A DNA stretch of 33,475 bases, from the NCBI GenBank assembly GCA_024641545.1, contig JAHECW010000042.1:1-33475 (forward strand), given 5' to 3'. Source of the DNA: Acidobacteriota bacterium. GTDB taxonomy: Bacteria > Acidobacteriota > Thermoanaerobaculia > Thermoanaerobaculales > Sulfomarinibacteraceae. Both the position numbers and the translations under genes were made by a program. The notes beneath the pieces are model-generated. The model saw only the letters and a list, made by a program, of their open reading frames with translations, was not told the origin of the DNA and made no database searches. Below, piece by piece: positions 21,519 to 29,893 of this stretch (positions are counted from its first letter, which is position 1; each line of letters starts with the position of its first letter).

Positions 21519-22679
21519 GTGGAGATCACACCTCGCCTGATCGAGCAGGCCGCGGCGCGCGGCGAGATGCATTTCGACTACCAACCGAAAGTGTCGTTTC
21601 TGACCGGAGAGGTCTGCGGCGCCGAGGCCCTCTTGCGGTGGCGCAGGGAGGACGGTTCCGAGGTCTCGCCGGAGAGCTTTGTTCCCCTCGCCGAGGCCTG
21701 GGGCGTGGTCAGCGATCTCACCGAGGCCATGTTCCCGCGTTTTCTCGCCGATGTCTCGGCGATCAAGACGGGCCACCCGAAGCAACGGATCGCTTTCAAC
21801 GTTTCGGCCCACGACCTCGACGCGCCCCGGTTCATCGCCATGCTGCACGACGCCATCGACCGCGGCCTCGTCGCCGTCGAGCACCTCGAACTCGAGGTCA
21901 CCGAAGGCGTGGTGGTTTCGGGCAAGCACTCGGTTCTCGGCAGCCTGCACCGCCTGGTGGCCGAGGGGGTCGAGCTCGCAATGGATGACTACGGCATGGG
22001 GTTCTCCTCCCTCGACACGCTCCAACGGCTGCCGTTTTCCTCGATCAAGCTCGATCAGAGCTTTGTCCTGCGGGTTCTCCACTCGGCCAAGAGCGCCGTG
22101 CTGGTCAAGCTCAGTATCGCCATGGCGCAGATGCTCGGAATCCGAACCGTGGTCGAAGGGGTGGAATCGAAAGCGATCTACGACTCCCTGCTCCACTCCG
22201 GCTGTTCCGCGGCGCAGGGGTTTTGGGTCAGCCGACCGCTGCCGCTCGACGACTACCTCGCCTTCCTCAGCGATCAACCGAGATGGCCGGCCTCACCCAT
22301 CGGCCTGTTCCGCATGGCCCAACTCGCCCACTTCTGGCAGGAACGACTGCTCATCGACATGGTCTTTGCCGCCCTTCAGAGCGACGATCCGGTGACCGAC
22401 ATCCCCCTCGAATTCCATCTCGATGAGACCGAGTGCGAGCTCGGCAAGTGGTACCTCGGCTCCGGTCGGGAGTTCGCCGGCGATCCCGACTTCGACGCCC
22501 TCGAGGCGCCCCACCGGGCCATGCACGACCTCTGCGCCGAGGTCTTCCGGGCGCTTCGGACCGGGGATCGGCAGCATATTCTCAGCGAGCTGCTCGGCGA
22601 GATCTCGGCGAACTCCTGTCGTGTGACGACGTGCCTCCACCGGCTCGAGACCCAGGCGCTGATCCGCGAAGCCGATTGA
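21519..22679 (+). CDS. EAL-domain cyclic-di-GMP phosphodiesterase with C-terminal CZB zinc-binding domain
   Basis: A 386-residue protein. Residues about 5-245 are an EAL domain with the main catalytic motifs: E36 in AEALLRW, FNVSA, LELEVTEG, MDDYGMGFSSL (for DDFGTG), IKLDQSFV, VVEGVES and QGFWVSRPL. It should hydrolyse c-di-GMP in the cytoplasm. Residues about 265-375 match the CZB (chemoreceptor zinc-binding) domain: H271 in AHFWQ, C306 in ECELGKWYLGSG, and H332/H336 in APHRAMH. This gives the 3-His/1-Cys set with spacing close to that of E. coli DgcZ (H22, C52, H79, H83). Zinc control of c-di-GMP breakdown is inferred. The start is GTG at 21519 with a GAAGGCGG upstream. Divergent from the OMP gene. 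Confidence 0.88.
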   Translation: MEITPRLIEQAAARGEMHFDYQPKVSFLTGEVCGAEALLRWRREDGSEVSPESFVPLAEAWGVVSDLTEAMFPRFLADVSAIKTGHPKQRIAFNVSAHDLDAPRFIAMLHDAIDRGLVAVEHLELEVTEGVVVSGKHSVLGSLHRLVAEGVELAMDDYGMGFSSLDTLQRLPFSSIKLDQSFVLRVLHSAKSAVLVKLSIAMAQMLGIRTVVEGVESKAIYDSLLHSGCSAAQGFWVSRPLPLDDYLAFLSDQPRWPASPIGLFRMAQLAHFWQERLLIDMVFAALQSDDPVTDIPLEFHLDETECELGKWYLGSGREFAGDPDFDALEAPHRAMHDLCAEVFRALRTGDRQHILSELLGEISANSCRVTTCLHRLETQALIREAD

Positions 22680-24099: not shown

Positions 24100-26094
24100 T
24101 CATTGCTGAGTGAAGTCGTAGCGCCAGGTGATGAAGGCATGGGTGGAGATGACCACGCCATCCTTGGTGCCGGGCTTGTAGCGATACCCTGAAGCGGCCT
24201 CGATCGCCGCCTCCGGGATGCCCCAATCGGTGTGGTCCGCCCGCAGGACGACGACCTCGTCGACCCCGCCGCTCGGATTCACGGTCACCTGGACCACGAC
24301 CACGCCCTTGCCCTTCGACCGTTGGGCATTCCTCGGCCACGCCAAGGGTTCGCTCTTCACCACCACGGGGAGCGTGTCGGCGTCCTCCGGACTGACGAAC
24401 TCTCCGATTTGGACCACCGTCGTGGCCGCTGCGACGGTCGGCCGGGGCGGCGCCGTCGTCGGAGCGGGCGGTGTGGTCGGCTTTTCCTGCGCGACCGGTC
24501 GGGCCTCTCGGCCACCACCGGCGGCCGGACCGGAATCGGCGGCCGCCGCCGCACCGCCGGCGATCGTCGCTTTGTCGGTGGCCGCCTGTTCAGCCGCCTC
24601 GTTCAACGCCTCCCGGCGCTTGGTTTCCAACGCCTGCTCCTGTTCGCGCTGGGCCTTCTCCTGCTCCTCGATCTCGGCCATCAGTTTCTTCTGGGTCGCG
24701 GCCTCGCTCGCCGCCGCCGCCGCGCCCTGGGTCGCCCGCTCTTCGCTCTGCTGGAGGCGGCGCTGCAGCTCCACGATTCTGGTCTGTCGGGCGATGAGTT
24801 CCTGCCGTATCTCTTCCTCACGCTCGGCCATCATCTCGGAGACCATCGCCTGGGTCAGGGCCCGGAGCCGATCGTCCTGAGCCTGTCTGCCGGCGGCGAT
24901 CTCGTCAGCCGTCGGCGTCGGCACCGGCGGGGGCAGCTGCGGCCGGGTCCCGCGGCCGATCCAGAAAACACCGGCGGCGATGGCGATGACGACCGCCCCG
25001 CCGATGATCCCCCAGAGCAGGCGCTTGCCGCCGCCTTCCCGGGCGGGTGGAATCGCCTCGGCCGTAGGGCTCGGCTCATCCGGCCCGGGCTCGTCGCGCT
25101 CGATCACCCGGTCCCACTGCTCGGCCTCGACCTTGATGTACGGCCGAACATCGATCTCGGACTCGAGTTTCAGGGCCACCTCGTCCTCTTCGATCTCGGT
25201 TCTGAACAGGCGATCCATGAAGAGGGCGAGATTGAAGGTCGTGGGCGAGTAGGCGCCGCCGTAGATGAGCCTTTCCAACTCGGCCCGGAACTCGGCGGCG
25301 GTCGCGAACCGATCGCTGGGCGCCGGGGCGAGAGCGCGGTTCAGAACGGCGCGGATGTCGAGCGCGAGCGGCTCTCCGTCCCAGGCGACGTGCGCCGCCT
25401 CGAGCGCCGCGGTGCGCTCGTCCGGATTCACCGGCAGGGCGGTCCCGGTGAGGAGATGAAAGAGGATCGCGCCGAGCGAGTAGACGTCGGCCTGCTGAGA
25501 GACACGTCCGGCGGCGAGGGCCTCGGGCGCGAGATAGGCACGGACGCCGGCGGCTGCATCGGCATCGCCGACGGCGCCCAGGAGGGTCGGGCCGAGCCCG
25601 AAGCCGGTGACCAGGACCTCTCCGTCGTTGCTCAGGTAGACCAGACCGGGATGAAGAAAACCGTGCGCCAGCGGATTCCCGCCGACCGCGATGGACTCGC
25701 CGGAGGCGAGCGCGAGGGCGAGCTTTTCGACGATCAGCAACGTGTTGTCGGGCTGGAGAGGAAAGGCCTCGTCGCGGGCGCGCGACAACACCCGGTTCAG
25801 CGGTTGACCCGGGAGGTAGTCACAACCCAGACCGGGCACACCGTCGGCGTCGAGGAAGAGCGGATGCCGCGGCAGCTGTGACCCGCGGATGGCCTCGGCG
25901 ATGGCTCGGGCTTCCCCGAACGATGCGATGATCGCCTTCGAGGGAAGACCGGCCCCGTCGAAGACCCGCAGCCAGATGACGCGATCCAGGGTCTCGCCGG
26001 CGATGATTCCAGCTCTGAACAGATGACCGAGATCGTCCTCGAAAACCTCCTTGAACACGATGCAGGATCCGAAGACCTCATAGGGTTGGGTCAT
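24100..26094 (-). CDS. pseudokinase - membrane segment - coiled coil - TonB C-terminal domain fusion protein
   Basis: A 664-residue protein. Residues about 10-280 have a protein-kinase fold signature (LAPEALAAGRVSQQADVYSLG, FHLLTG, RFATAAEF). The catalytic residues are gone: the HRDLKPxN loop reads HGFLHPGLV (144-152), DFG reads GFG (164-166), and no VAIK lysine is visible (IWLRVF). It is therefore a cytoplasmic pseudokinase. A membrane helix lies at about 359-379 after a basic patch, then a Gln/Glu/Arg-rich coiled coil (about 396-505), a Pro/Ala/Thr-rich linker, and a TonB C-terminal domain (about 575-664, with VQVTVNPSGGVDEVVVLRAD and YRYKPG). GGAGGG upstream supports the ATG at 26094. Last gene of ruvX-mltG-this operon. 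It may link cytoplasmic sensing to an envelope partner. Confidence 0.82.
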   Translation of the reverse strand: MTQPYEVFGSCIVFKEVFEDDLGHLFRAGIIAGETLDRVIWLRVFDGAGLPSKAIIASFGEARAIAEAIRGSQLPRHPLFLDADGVPGLGCDYLPGQPLNRVLSRARDEAFPLQPDNTLLIVEKLALALASGESIAVGGNPLAHGFLHPGLVYLSNDGEVLVTGFGLGPTLLGAVGDADAAAGVRAYLAPEALAAGRVSQQADVYSLGAILFHLLTGTALPVNPDERTAALEAAHVAWDGEPLALDIRAVLNRALAPAPSDRFATAAEFRAELERLIYGGAYSPTTFNLALFMDRLFRTEIEEDEVALKLESEIDVRPYIKVEAEQWDRVIERDEPGPDEPSPTAEAIPPAREGGGKRLLWGIIGGAVVIAIAAGVFWIGRGTRPQLPPPVPTPTADEIAAGRQAQDDRLRALTQAMVSEMMAEREEEIRQELIARQTRIVELQRRLQQSEERATQGAAAAASEAATQKKLMAEIEEQEKAQREQEQALETKRREALNEAAEQAATDKATIAGGAAAAADSGPAAGGGREARPVAQEKPTTPPAPTTAPPRPTVAAATTVVQIGEFVSPEDADTLPVVVKSEPLAWPRNAQRSKGKGVVVVQVTVNPSGGVDEVVVLRADHTDWGIPEAAIEAASGYRYKPGTKDGVVISTHAFITWRYDFTQQ

Positions 26095-26136: not shown

Positions 26137-27150
26137 TCAACGGCGGGAGCGCTGCCACCTCTCGACCGCCTGGTTGTGCTCGGCGAGGGTCCGCGAGAAC
26201 GCGTGCCCGCCGTCCGGCGACGCGACGAAGAAGAGGTAACCGTGCTCGTCGGGCGAGATCGCGGCTCGGATCGCCTCCCGGCCCGGGGAGTTGATGGGCC
26301 CCGGGGGTAAACCGGGGTAGCGATAGGTGTTGTACGGGTCGTCGATGCCCCAGTGAATGCGAAGCAGACGGCCGGTCCACTCGCCCCGGCGTTTGAGTGC
26401 GAAGACCACCGTGGGATCACACTGGAGGAGCATGCCGCGGCGCAACCGGTTGAGGTAGACCCCGGCGACCCGGGCGCGTTCCGTCGTCAATGCGGTCTCG
26501 GATTCGACGAGAGAGGCGAGGATCACGACATCGAACGGCGATCCCCAGAGCCCCGGGACCCGCGAGGACTCATCCGCCCACACCTCGCGGAATCGATCGA
26601 CCAGGTGACGGGCGGCAGCTTCGACCCCGATCCCCTGGGCAAACTGATAGGTGTCGGGAAACAGAAAGCCCTCGAGCGAGGTCGCTTCGGGCGCGAGATC
26701 CTCGATCCAATCGACCTGTTCGGTCGATTTGAGCCACTCGGCCGCGGTGCCGATGCCGGCGGCGGCCATCTGGGTCGCGACGGCATCGAGATCCGATCCC
26801 TCCACCACCGTCACCGGGACCATCTCGACCCGGCCGGCGAGGAGACGATCGAGGACATCCACCGGCCGGCTCGCGGCGTCGATTTGATAGCGACCGAAGT
26901 GGATCGATCGGCCATCCGCCGCAAACCGCAGATAGAGGCGGCCGGCGAGGGTCGACGGCAGCAGGCGGTGATCTTCGAGGATGGCGAGGACTTCGCGGCC
27001 CGAAGCGCCCTCGGGGATGGCGAGCTCGACGGCGCTCGGACTGCGGTAGCGGTAGAGCTGGGTCCAGAGCCAGGCGGCCGATCCGCCGACCACGGCGAGG
27101 CCGGAGACGACCACCACAAAGCCGAGCAGGGCGACCGTCCGGCGCTTCAT
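26137..27150 (-). CDS. mltG: endolytic peptidoglycan transglycosylase MltG
   Basis: A 337-residue protein with one N-terminal membrane segment (about 7-30), a LysM-like region and the YceG/MltG catalytic domain. The catalytic Glu is E216 in ILASLVESE, and the signature DPYNTYRYPGLPPGPI is intact. MltG cuts nascent glycan strands at the inner membrane and is thought to set their length. The ATG overlaps the ruvX stop by four bases (ATGA at 27147-27150). The same gene pair occurs in many bacteria. Length matches E. coli MltG (340). Confidence 0.93.
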   Translation of the reverse strand: MKRRTVALLGFVVVVSGLAVVGGSAAWLWTQLYRYRSPSAVELAIPEGASGREVLAILEDHRLLPSTLAGRLYLRFAADGRSIHFGRYQIDAASRPVDVLDRLLAGRVEMVPVTVVEGSDLDAVATQMAAAGIGTAAEWLKSTEQVDWIEDLAPEATSLEGFLFPDTYQFAQGIGVEAAARHLVDRFREVWADESSRVPGLWGSPFDVVILASLVESETALTTERARVAGVYLNRLRRGMLLQCDPTVVFALKRRGEWTGRLLRIHWGIDDPYNTYRYPGLPPGPINSPGREAIRAAISPDEHGYLFFVASPDGGHAFSRTLAEHNQAVERWQRSRR

Positions 27151-27563
27151 CGCGGTGCGTCCTTCGGATGTCGACCCTCGAGAAACTCTTCGAGAATCAC
27201 CTGCGCCGCGATGTCGTCGACCGGCTGACCCGGTCGACGGTTGGACGACTTCGCCCGCCGCCGCGCTTCGTTCGTGGTGAGGAACTCCGGCTGCAACGCC
27301 GTTTCGACACCGAGTTCCGCGAGCGCTCGCGCCAAGGCGTGCGATCGCACGCAGGCCGGGGTTTCAGAACCGTCGGACGCGGTCGGGAGACCGATGACCA
27401 CGATGTCGGCGCCGAATTCGTCCACGGCCTCGACGATGAGCCTCGTCGCCTGGTTCGAACCCTGGTACGGTGCGACCGCCAAAGGCGTCGCGAAACCGGT
27501 AAGATCGTCAGCCAATGCGAGACCGAGGCGTTTGCCGCCGGGATCGATTCCGAGGAAGCGCAT
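27147..27563 (-). CDS. ruvX: Holliday junction resolvase-like protein RuvX (YqgF)
   Basis: A 138-residue RNase H-fold protein with RFLGIDPGGKRLGLA at the start (catalytic D7), VVIGLP in the middle, TTNEARR, and the C-terminal DDIAAQVILEEFL. The family is linked to pre-16S rRNA 5' end processing and Holliday junction metabolism. The ATG at 27563 begins the conserved fold; the frame continues upstream to 27617 without support. First gene of an operon with mltG, and divergent from lptD across about 190 bases. Confidence 0.93.
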   Translation of the reverse strand: MRFLGIDPGGKRLGLALADDLTGFATPLAVAPYQGSNQATRLIVEAVDEFGADIVVIGLPTASDGSETPACVRSHALARALAELGVETALQPEFLTTNEARRRAKSSNRRPGQPVDDIAAQVILEEFLEGRHPKDAPR

Positions 27564-27569
27564 GAGCCT

Positions 27570-27674
27570 ATTGTACGGGCACCGATTACAATGACCTGAG
27601 TTTCGTGTCCGGCCCACTCGACCCGCGGACTCCCAACGGGGGAGTGCGGGCCGGCAACGACCGGAGAGGAGTTC
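27570..27674 (+). promoter_or_regulatory. lptD leader: symmetric -10-like boxes and hairpin
   Basis: ATTGTA (27570-27575) and TACAAT (27587-27592) form an inverted repeat that gives a TACAAT -10-like box on each strand, between divergent ruvX and lptD. No good -35 was found for either. Downstream, CCCGC (27622-27626)/GCGGG (27646-27650) and ACTCCC (27629-27634)/GGGAGT (27640-27645) fold into one 11-bp hairpin with a GG bulge, followed by a short CCGG/CCGG stem and a strong Shine-Dalgarno (GGAGAGGAG, 27663-27671). Confidence 0.45.
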
Positions 27675-27767
27675 GTGGAGATCCTGGTGAAGATTGGGTT
27701 CTTGACCGAACCGGACCGCCGGCGGGGCTCCCGCGGGTGGTGCCGGATCGCATGCTGGACACCGTGA
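27675..27767 (+). CDS. possible 30-residue leader peptide overlapping the lptD start
   Basis: A GTG-initiated frame of 30 codons begins four bases after GGAGAGGAG, the best Shine-Dalgarno in the lptD upstream region. It ends at a TGA 13 bases inside lptD, so it overlaps the lptD ATG at 27752, which has no clear Shine-Dalgarno of its own. The predicted product is basic, with a run of arginines and two Trp and two Cys. It could couple translation into lptD. Alternatively the purine box is coincidental. Confidence 0.35.
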   Translation: MEILVKIGFLTEPDRRRGSRGWCRIACWTP

Positions 27768-29893
27768 ACCGCATTCTCGCCGTCTTTGCCGTGGTCGCCG
27801 TGGTCGCCGCGATCGGATCGGCGCAGGAGACCCCGACGGCGAGCCGACCGGTCCAGGACGGCGCCCTCCGGATGACGGCCGATCAGCAGGACTGCCAGGA
27901 GGAGGAAAGCCTCTGCCTGTGGACCGGCAACGTCAAGATCTATTACCAGGACGTCACCCTCGCCTGTGACGAGGTGCTCTACAACGGGTCGAGCATGGAT
28001 CTCGTGGCCCGGGGCAACGTGGTCGTCGATCAGGGGCCGAGCCGCTTCACGGCCGACGAGCTGCACTACAACCTGCGCTCGAAGACCGGGCTGTTCCTCA
28101 ACGCCACCGGTTTCGTCTCGCCCATGTACACCTTCTCCGGCCAGTCCATCGAAAAGCTCGATGAGACCCGCTACCGGGTCGACCGGGCGGTCTTCACGAC
28201 CTGTGATGACGACACCCGGCATCCCCCGTGGAGCTTTCACCTGAAAAAGGCAAACCTCCAGGTTGAGGGCTACGGCAGGTTCACGAGCTCGACGGTCAAG
28301 ATCCAGGGTGTCCCGGTCTTCTATCTGCCCTACATGGTCTGGCCGATCAAGAAGGAACGGTCGCCGGGTCTCCTGATGCCGGGTTTCGGCTACTCCGACC
28401 GCCTCGGCGCCTATATCGGTCTGCCGGTCTACTTTCCCCTCGGCCGAAGCTGGGACACCACCTTCGTCTTCGAGTATTTCTCGAATGGTTATTACGGCGT
28501 CGGCAACGAGCTCAGGGGGACGCCCTTCCAGAACAGCACCGGGCTGCTCGACCTCTACTCAATCTACGACCAGGAGAACGCCGAGTGGCAGTGGCGGGTC
28601 AACGGTCACTACGACCAGGCCGATGTCTTCGGATTTCGTCTCCAGGCGCAGGTCGAGAACCTCTCCGATCCCGATTTCTTCCAGAACTTCGAGCGGACCT
28701 TCGAGGCCAACACCCGGCGCGACGTCTACTCCTACCTCTTTCTCACCCAGAGCTGGGGCCCGTACTCCCTCAACCTCAGTGCGGACCACCGGACCACCTT
28801 CCTGACCAACGTCGACACCACGCTCGCCCGGCTCCCCGAGGCCGAGCTGAGGGTTCGTTCCACCCGTCTGTTCAACAGCGACGTCTACTGGAATCTGGTT
28901 TCGTCGGTGAATCTCTTCGACATCGACAAGGGCAACGACCTGGTGAGCACCTACTGGCGCGGTGATGTCTTCCCGACCCTCAACTACACCCTGCCCGGAC
29001 CGCCCTGGCTCACGGTGACGCCACGGGTTGGGGGGCGCTACACCTACTACACGGCGCGTTACTCGGCAACCCAGACCGAGTACATCAATCAACCCATCGA
29101 TCGCGCCTACGTCGCCGCCGGGGTCGACATCGGCGGCCCGTCGATATCGCGGGTCTTCAACAAACCGCGGTGGGGTTTCTCCAAGTTCAAGCATCTCATC
29201 GAGCCGCGGATCGAGTACGCCTACCTCCAGGGCATCGGTGAGGACAACACCGAGATCCCCATCGCCGACGAGGTCGACAGCACTCCGCTGAGAAACCGGG
29301 TCAGGCTGTCGCTGGCCAACCGGCTCTTCGGTCGTTCGGAAAAGAGTCTGAGCTCGGTCGAGCTCGGTTCCTTCGAGCTCTTTCAGGACTACTCCTTCGC
29401 GAGGGCCCTGAGCTACGGCCCGGACGGAACGACCAGCAACCTGGCGCCGGTGATCGCCTCCCTCCGCGTCACCCCGAGCCCGGGCACCGGCCTCGATGCC
29501 CGCGCGAGCTACGACTGGCTCAACCGGAACCTGGCCTCCATTTCAATGACCGGGACCGGCCGCACCGGGTTCGGGTCACTCAGCCTGACCTGGTACGCCG
29601 GCTTCAACCCGATCACCGGCGACCGCGTCTCATCCCAGGTGAGGACCCTGATCAACTTCATGAAACCGGGTTTTCCGGTCACCGCCGCGCTCCACGTCGC
29701 CTACGACATCGAACAGAAGGAGATCCAGCAGCAGCGCTACCAGATCGGCTGGAAGGGCGGCTGCTGGGCGATCTCCGCCGAGTACCGCGATCTCAAGATC
29801 GGGCTCTATCCGACCCGCGACTTCCGGATCATCATCGAGCTCAAGGGGATCGGCAGCCTGCCCGAGATCAAGGGCAGCCTGGGCGGGGGCTAG
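27752..29893 (+). CDS. lptD: LPS-assembly outer-membrane protein LptD
   Basis: A 713-residue protein with a signal peptide (about 1-24, cut before QETPT). It continues with an OstA/LptA-like beta-jellyroll (about 35-150: LWTGNVKIYYQDVTL, LVARGNVVVDQG) and the LptD hallmark VFYLPYMVWPIKKERSPGLLMP (about 190-211 region). A large beta-barrel then runs to the C-terminus with many aromatic-rich strands. LptD with LptE places lipopolysaccharide in the outer leaflet of the outer membrane, so the organism is expected to make LPS. Four Cys occur in the N-terminal half. The ATG at 27752 is chosen for the signal peptide. No lptE is recognised nearby. Confidence 0.88.
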   Translation: MLDTVNRILAVFAVVAVVAAIGSAQETPTASRPVQDGALRMTADQQDCQEEESLCLWTGNVKIYYQDVTLACDEVLYNGSSMDLVARGNVVVDQGPSRFTADELHYNLRSKTGLFLNATGFVSPMYTFSGQSIEKLDETRYRVDRAVFTTCDDDTRHPPWSFHLKKANLQVEGYGRFTSSTVKIQGVPVFYLPYMVWPIKKERSPGLLMPGFGYSDRLGAYIGLPVYFPLGRSWDTTFVFEYFSNGYYGVGNELRGTPFQNSTGLLDLYSIYDQENAEWQWRVNGHYDQADVFGFRLQAQVENLSDPDFFQNFERTFEANTRRDVYSYLFLTQSWGPYSLNLSADHRTTFLTNVDTTLARLPEAELRVRSTRLFNSDVYWNLVSSVNLFDIDKGNDLVSTYWRGDVFPTLNYTLPGPPWLTVTPRVGGRYTYYTARYSATQTEYINQPIDRAYVAAGVDIGGPSISRVFNKPRWGFSKFKHLIEPRIEYAYLQGIGEDNTEIPIADEVDSTPLRNRVRLSLANRLFGRSEKSLSSVELGSFELFQDYSFARALSYGPDGTTSNLAPVIASLRVTPSPGTGLDARASYDWLNRNLASISMTGTGRTGFGSLSLTWYAGFNPITGDRVSSQVRTLINFMKPGFPVTAALHVAYDIEQKEIQQQRYQIGWKGGCWAISAEYRDLKIGLYPTRDFRIIIELKGIGSLPEIKGSLGGG

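Follow-up and report, generated by a model that had tools for sequence, protein, structure and literature searches.

A predicted pseudokinase with a C-terminal TonB domain defines a conserved protein family of Acidobacteriota

The window analyzed here, a stretch of 33,475 nucleotides, corresponds to contig C103 of an acidobacterial draft genome of 5.38 Mb. On its reverse strand it carries an operon of ruvX, mltG and a gene for a protein in which a pseudokinase is followed by a membrane helix, a long helix, a proline-rich linker and a TonB C-terminal domain (TonB_C) (Table 1). The mltG gene ends 42 bp upstream of the pseudokinase gene and overlaps ruvX by 4 bp, and the true start of ruvX may be the methionine at residue 19 of the called frame. 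No promoter was found, and terminator-like sites were no more numerous than expected by chance. The gene lptD lies divergent from the ruvX-mltG operon (27147-29893), as in many members of the class, which places outer-membrane and wall genes in a common region. Elsewhere in the window, 21519-22679 (+) encodes a 386-residue protein in which a chemoreceptor zinc-binding (CZB) domain comes after an EAL phosphodiesterase domain.

Table 1. Positions of the pseudokinase-TonB_C gene, its protein segments and the operon genes in the window.
Feature	Residues	Position	Strand	Basis or remark
Whole gene, 664 aa	1-664	24100..26094	-	intact ORF, ATG start, stop included
Kinase-like domain	1-279	25258..26094	-	Pfam, PDB sequence search, alignment; catalytic residues gone
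Post-kinase helix, GGAYSPTTFNLALFMDRLF	280-305	25180..25257	-	conservation in class homologues
Single membrane helix, without His	359-378	24961..25020	-	hydropathy and AlphaFold2
Long charged periplasmic helix	396-511	24562..24909	-	AlphaFold2, pLDDT ~90
Pro/Thr-rich linker	~530-575	24370..24507	-	sequence
TonB_C domain	584-660	24115..24345	-	Pfam and TIGR01352
mltG, endolytic transglycosylase, upstream in operon		26137..27150	-	PF02618 E 7e-76, TIGR00247 202 bits
ruvX, first operon gene as called		27147..27617	-	PF03652 E 3e-25

The first-pass annotation had read a degenerate kinase fold and a TonB domain from the letters of this gene, and both were recovered by profile searches. Pfam matched Pkinase at residues 154-222 (E 1e-7; 32.1 bits, cut-off 31.7) and TonB_C at residues 584-660 (E 4.7e-10; 40.2 bits, cut-off 24.6), with TIGR01352 matching the TonB_C domain at 35.8 bits (cut-off 27.1). 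A phmmer search of the PDB aligned residues 139-279 with PknB kinases at E ~1e-12. The single membrane helix that had been proposed was likewise recovered, at ~359-377 by hydropathy and 359-378 in the AlphaFold2 model. What had been described as a coiled coil is by prediction a long, charged, proline-free helix: AlphaFold2 models residues ~396-511 as one helix of ~116 residues (pLDDT ~90), which at 0.15 nm per residue would extend ~17 nm if straight. Together with the proline-rich tether, which is shorter and richer in proline in several class members than in the window protein, this rod is of periplasm-spanning size by prediction. The models were built from input alignments of only 3 and 2 rows, and their quality is uneven. 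For the kinase domain, mean pLDDT was 53 with a good C-lobe; all top Foldseek matches were kinases, and the C-lobe superposed on PknB with a Z score of 16.7 and an rmsd of 3.1 over 144 aligned residues. The expected kinase fold thus appeared in the C-lobe, while the N-lobe and TonB_C were modeled with low confidence (pLDDT <50 past residue ~512), and we therefore rest the TonB_C call on Pfam and the N-lobe on the alignment. No Pfam match to PASTA repeats was obtained in the window protein at E up to 1, and Pfam found no MurJ flippase domain fused to its pseudokinase.

The active-site motifs of the window protein are degenerate in the way first described, with HGFLHPG at residues 144-150, GFG at 164-166 and YLAPEA at 187-192. 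The VAIK lysine is replaced by arginine (VIWLR). The positions of the β3 lysine, HRD aspartate and DFG aspartate hence hold Arg, Phe and Gly, none of them the residue of an active kinase. To place these changes in an evolutionary context, we aligned 50 homologues of full or nearly full length that belong to the class of the window organism. TonB_C was found in all 50 and Pkinase (PF00069) in 49, and HRD or DFG in none. Searches of 60 relatives all gave some match, many of them other kinases. A phylum-wide search added 27 pseudokinase homologues, for a total of 77, and 14 sequences whose catalytic motifs are intact; the Acidobacteriota label of these wider homologues is inferred from the nearest named contig, a MAG of the Thermoanaerobaculales, which are an order of Acidobacteriota, and its homologue is 65% identical across the whole protein. 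Some of the phylum homologues, matched in G103, G063, G078, G072 and G269, show one stop codon (TAA or TGA) within the match or within its reading frame, which might reflect an error, a true pseudogene or the end of a match.

Loss of catalytic residues is a property of the whole set. The HRD aspartate is missing from all 77 pseudokinases, as is the HRD arginine (Gly in 75, Asn in 2), and few retain the β3 lysine (3/77, with Arg in 56), the DFG aspartate (10/77) or the HRDxxxxN asparagine (3/77). Residues that support the fold are kept, namely the APE glutamate in 64 of 77 and the αF aspartate in 73. HRD is replaced mostly by HG[FAL], and not by the GLW known from other bacterial pseudokinases. 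The changes had been open to explanation as lineage decay, as an exception among homologues with intact HRD and DFG, or as a frameshift joining two genes; we reject all of these, since 77 homologues carry like changes. A quick phylogeny built with IQ-TREE from 69 kinase domains (53 pseudokinases and 16 active kinases, the latter including two added outside references) puts the pseudokinases on one side of one branch with an SH-aLRT of 99. Because the tree contains long branches, this supports a single origin without proving it; the shared HG and the shared non-catalytic motif described below also point to it. On these alignments, we regard the protein as a bacterial pseudokinase defined by family-wide loss of catalytic residues and as a genuine fusion, belonging to an old and widely kept pseudokinase-TonB_C family of Acidobacteriota. 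A scan of viral contigs for further kin returned one canonical active kinase and a second scan none. PADLOC matches to defense systems (PD-T4-6, MkoA and others) were dismissed as kinase-domain matches only.

Beyond the first-pass annotation, the homologues revealed a strongly conserved helix behind the kinase domain and an active sister family of the same layout. The most conserved stretch of the protein is the post-kinase motif SPTTFNLALFMDRLF. Over residues 280-305, class homologues show a mean identity of 71%; the corresponding values are 41% in the kinase domain, 39% in TonB_C and 28% in the linker. The motif, of TTFNLAF type, occurs in 75 of the 77 pseudokinases and in none of the 14 active sisters, and it stays constant among lineages, unlike the active-site region, which varies. 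The sisters share the layout and are usually longer, fall outside the pseudokinase clade as its nearest active relatives in the tree, and retain all catalytic residues (14/14), with VAIK, HRD and DFG intact. The sister in the window's own genome (on C127) gave a weak receiver-domain match, a match to a full kinase domain at 137 bits and a TonB_C match of 62.9 bits. Two further long members that were scanned likewise combine receiver, kinase and TonB_C. The active receiver-kinase-TM-TonB_C proteins (C127, L078) arrange kinase domain, membrane helix, linker and TonB_C as the window protein does, and differ by an N-terminal receiver domain, seen in the three long members scanned. More than 30 genomes list both short (~600-730) and long (~770-1170) frames, as counted by reading-frame length.

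Several known systems share parts of this architecture. PASTA kinases (PknB, StkP, IreK) also join a cytoplasmic kinase fold through one membrane helix to an extracytoplasmic binding domain, and PknB is the nearest solved structure to the window kinase domain; unlike the window protein, they are active, carry PASTA repeats and lack TonB_C. In the own genome, L091:2514-4499 (+) on C257 encodes a single protein that unites an M56 BlaR1-type peptidase with STN and TonB_C. This, too, is a signaling-type membrane protein ending in TonB_C, with a peptidase where the window protein has a kinase-like domain. Proteobacterial GLW pseudokinases likewise replace HRD and the β3 lysine and place a membrane helix after the kinase domain, but differ by the GLW motif from the mostly HG[FAL] window family, and TonB_C is not mentioned for them (PMC12599244). 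MviN of Mycobacterium tuberculosis carries a pseudokinase that scaffolds FhaA in cell-wall control (PMC12599244). Like the window protein, this MviN/MurJ pseudokinase (ActPs3) is membrane-linked, and it is tied to peptidoglycan synthesis with a demonstrated scaffold role; it differs in being attached to a MurJ flippase instead of TonB_C and in the changes that its motifs have undergone. As a precedent for a pseudokinase that acts as a scaffold at the cell wall, MviN comes closest.

We favor, with moderate confidence, the reading that the window protein is an unenergized envelope-spanning scaffold or sensor. TonB_C would hold or read a partner at the peptidoglycan or outer membrane, and its binding would pass a signal or force through the rod and membrane helix to the cytoplasmic pseudokinase, where the post-kinase helix may dock a partner. 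The likeliest candidate is the active kinase-TonB_C sister of the same cell, or the sister's substrates. Such a partnership is suggested, perhaps, by shared layout and co-occurrence. Cell-wall growth would be a likely output in the class, where the gene travels with ruvX-mltG. This reading rests on catalytic loss with retained fold residues in one clade, on the constant presence of TonB_C behind a membrane helix devoid of histidine in the class, on the co-occurring active sister and the exceptional conservation of the post-kinase helix, and on the operon that the gene forms with mltG in most members of the class other than family f2. The scaffold role of MviN and the action of the kinase IreK on MltG provide precedents. 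Weighing against it are the Plug-domain matches of the own genome as possible TonB_C ligands, the absence of the gene from one genus and the failure of the mltG link in f2 and outside the class.

The genomic link to mltG raises the alternative that the protein is a dedicated MltG regulator that adjusts the length of glycan chains by binding MltG through its pseudokinase or its rod. The operon in which the gene had been placed is real in the window and found across the class, with the order ruvX-mltG-gene shared by family f1 and the majority of the remaining families of the class, and mltG lies close upstream. In L046 (G037), two tandem pseudokinase-TonB copies stand downstream of mltG. A kinase that acts on MltG is also known, as the enterococcal PASTA kinase IreK phosphorylates a cytoplasmic residue of MltG (PMC12369325). 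However, the linkage breaks down in both directions. In the order-mate family f2, ruvX directly precedes the pseudokinase gene in several genomes, and mltG was found in none of six genomes that are 92-96% complete (G020, G021, G022, G023, G033, G034) while the pseudokinase gene remains. Conversely, genus g22 of the class keeps ruvX-mltG without the homologue, which also implies that some lineages can dispense with the protein. Outside the class, neither ruvX nor mltG was found beside homologues in the stretches taken. The mltG link is thus a trait of the window's class and not of the family. Moreover, the window's MltG has a cytoplasmic tail of only ~4 residues, which makes a direct cytoplasmic grip on it unlikely, and an IreK-type contact does not carry over directly. 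With f2, g22 and the wider phylum all weakening it, we consider a dedicated MltG partner unlikely.

A TonB_C domain above its Pfam cut-off could instead indicate a TonB energizer with an added cytoplasmic domain, driven by ExbB/ExbD, whose pseudokinase would control the uptake that TonB-dependent receptors carry out. The genome, when checked, proved to have ExbB/ExbD genes: each of the two gave five matches, located on C142, C41, C207 and C251, and there are 21 Plug-domain matches as candidate TonB_C partners. In TonB and TolA, a Ser-x3-His motif within the membrane helix makes the contact with ExbB/TolQ (PMC12215075), and the D-box is their ExbD-binding site (PMC10907165). SxxxH is absent from the membrane helix of all 50 class members, which have no histidine there at all, and the D-box pattern occurs in one of 50, inside the charged helix, where it is likely a chance string. 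The motor genes all lie away from the window contig and from the pseudokinase gene, next to small TonB/TolA-type proteins of their own, of which those on C142, C41 and C251 contain [AS]xxxH. The TonB beside exbB/exbD on C207 also lacks the histidine, so SxxxH is not fully diagnostic in this genome. The window protein hence shares the inner-membrane helix, periplasmic linker and TonB_C of the Ton motor's TonB, yet differs in both motor motifs, its large cytoplasmic domain and its gene context. This disfavors a classical TonB, in agreement with the original suggestion, drawn out here by motif, that the protein is no classical transporter energizer. We regard the energizer as improbable, and independence from ExbB/ExbD forms part of the scaffold or sensor reading, sharing its moderate confidence.

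Comparably improbable is a purely structural tether that runs from the inner membrane to the peptidoglycan or outer membrane and that the pseudokinase would merely anchor in the cytoplasm. The predicted rod length is near the width of the periplasm and the linker sequence is poorly conserved, but the cytoplasmic part, chiefly the post-kinase helix, is conserved at least as well as TonB_C, and a passive anchor would have no need of such conservation. Unusual catalysis despite the motifs, such as AMP transfer as in SelO or SidJ, gains some credit from the recurrent β3 arginine, the retained fold and activities gained by other pseudokinases (PMC12599244), but appears very improbable given that the metal ligands are mostly lost together and that the active-site region differs among lineages while the post-kinase helix is constant.

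No paper on a TonB-pseudokinase protein was found in the open-licence literature, and the text of a 2025 review of bacterial pseudokinase families mentions neither TonB nor Acidobacteria (PMC12599244). The parts are known, but in that literature we found neither their combination nor its conservation nor the pairing of the family with an active sister.

TonB_C is usually taken as the mark of an energized transporter, and pseudokinase-TonB_C proteins are likely annotated as energy transducers. Here it sits on a kinase-like receptor whose family is old and has an active sister to match, which suggests that TonB_C can have a role in signaling or anchoring. As a tentative extension that we hold with more doubt than the scaffold or sensor reading itself, Acidobacteriota might run a transenvelope pair of an active kinase and a pseudokinase, both ending in a TonB_C that would read the state of the peptidoglycan or outer membrane as a sensor and not as a motor part, comparable to animal receptor kinase/pseudokinase pairs. 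If the two work together, they would constitute an unstudied route by which diderm bacteria could convey the state of the envelope to the cytoplasm.
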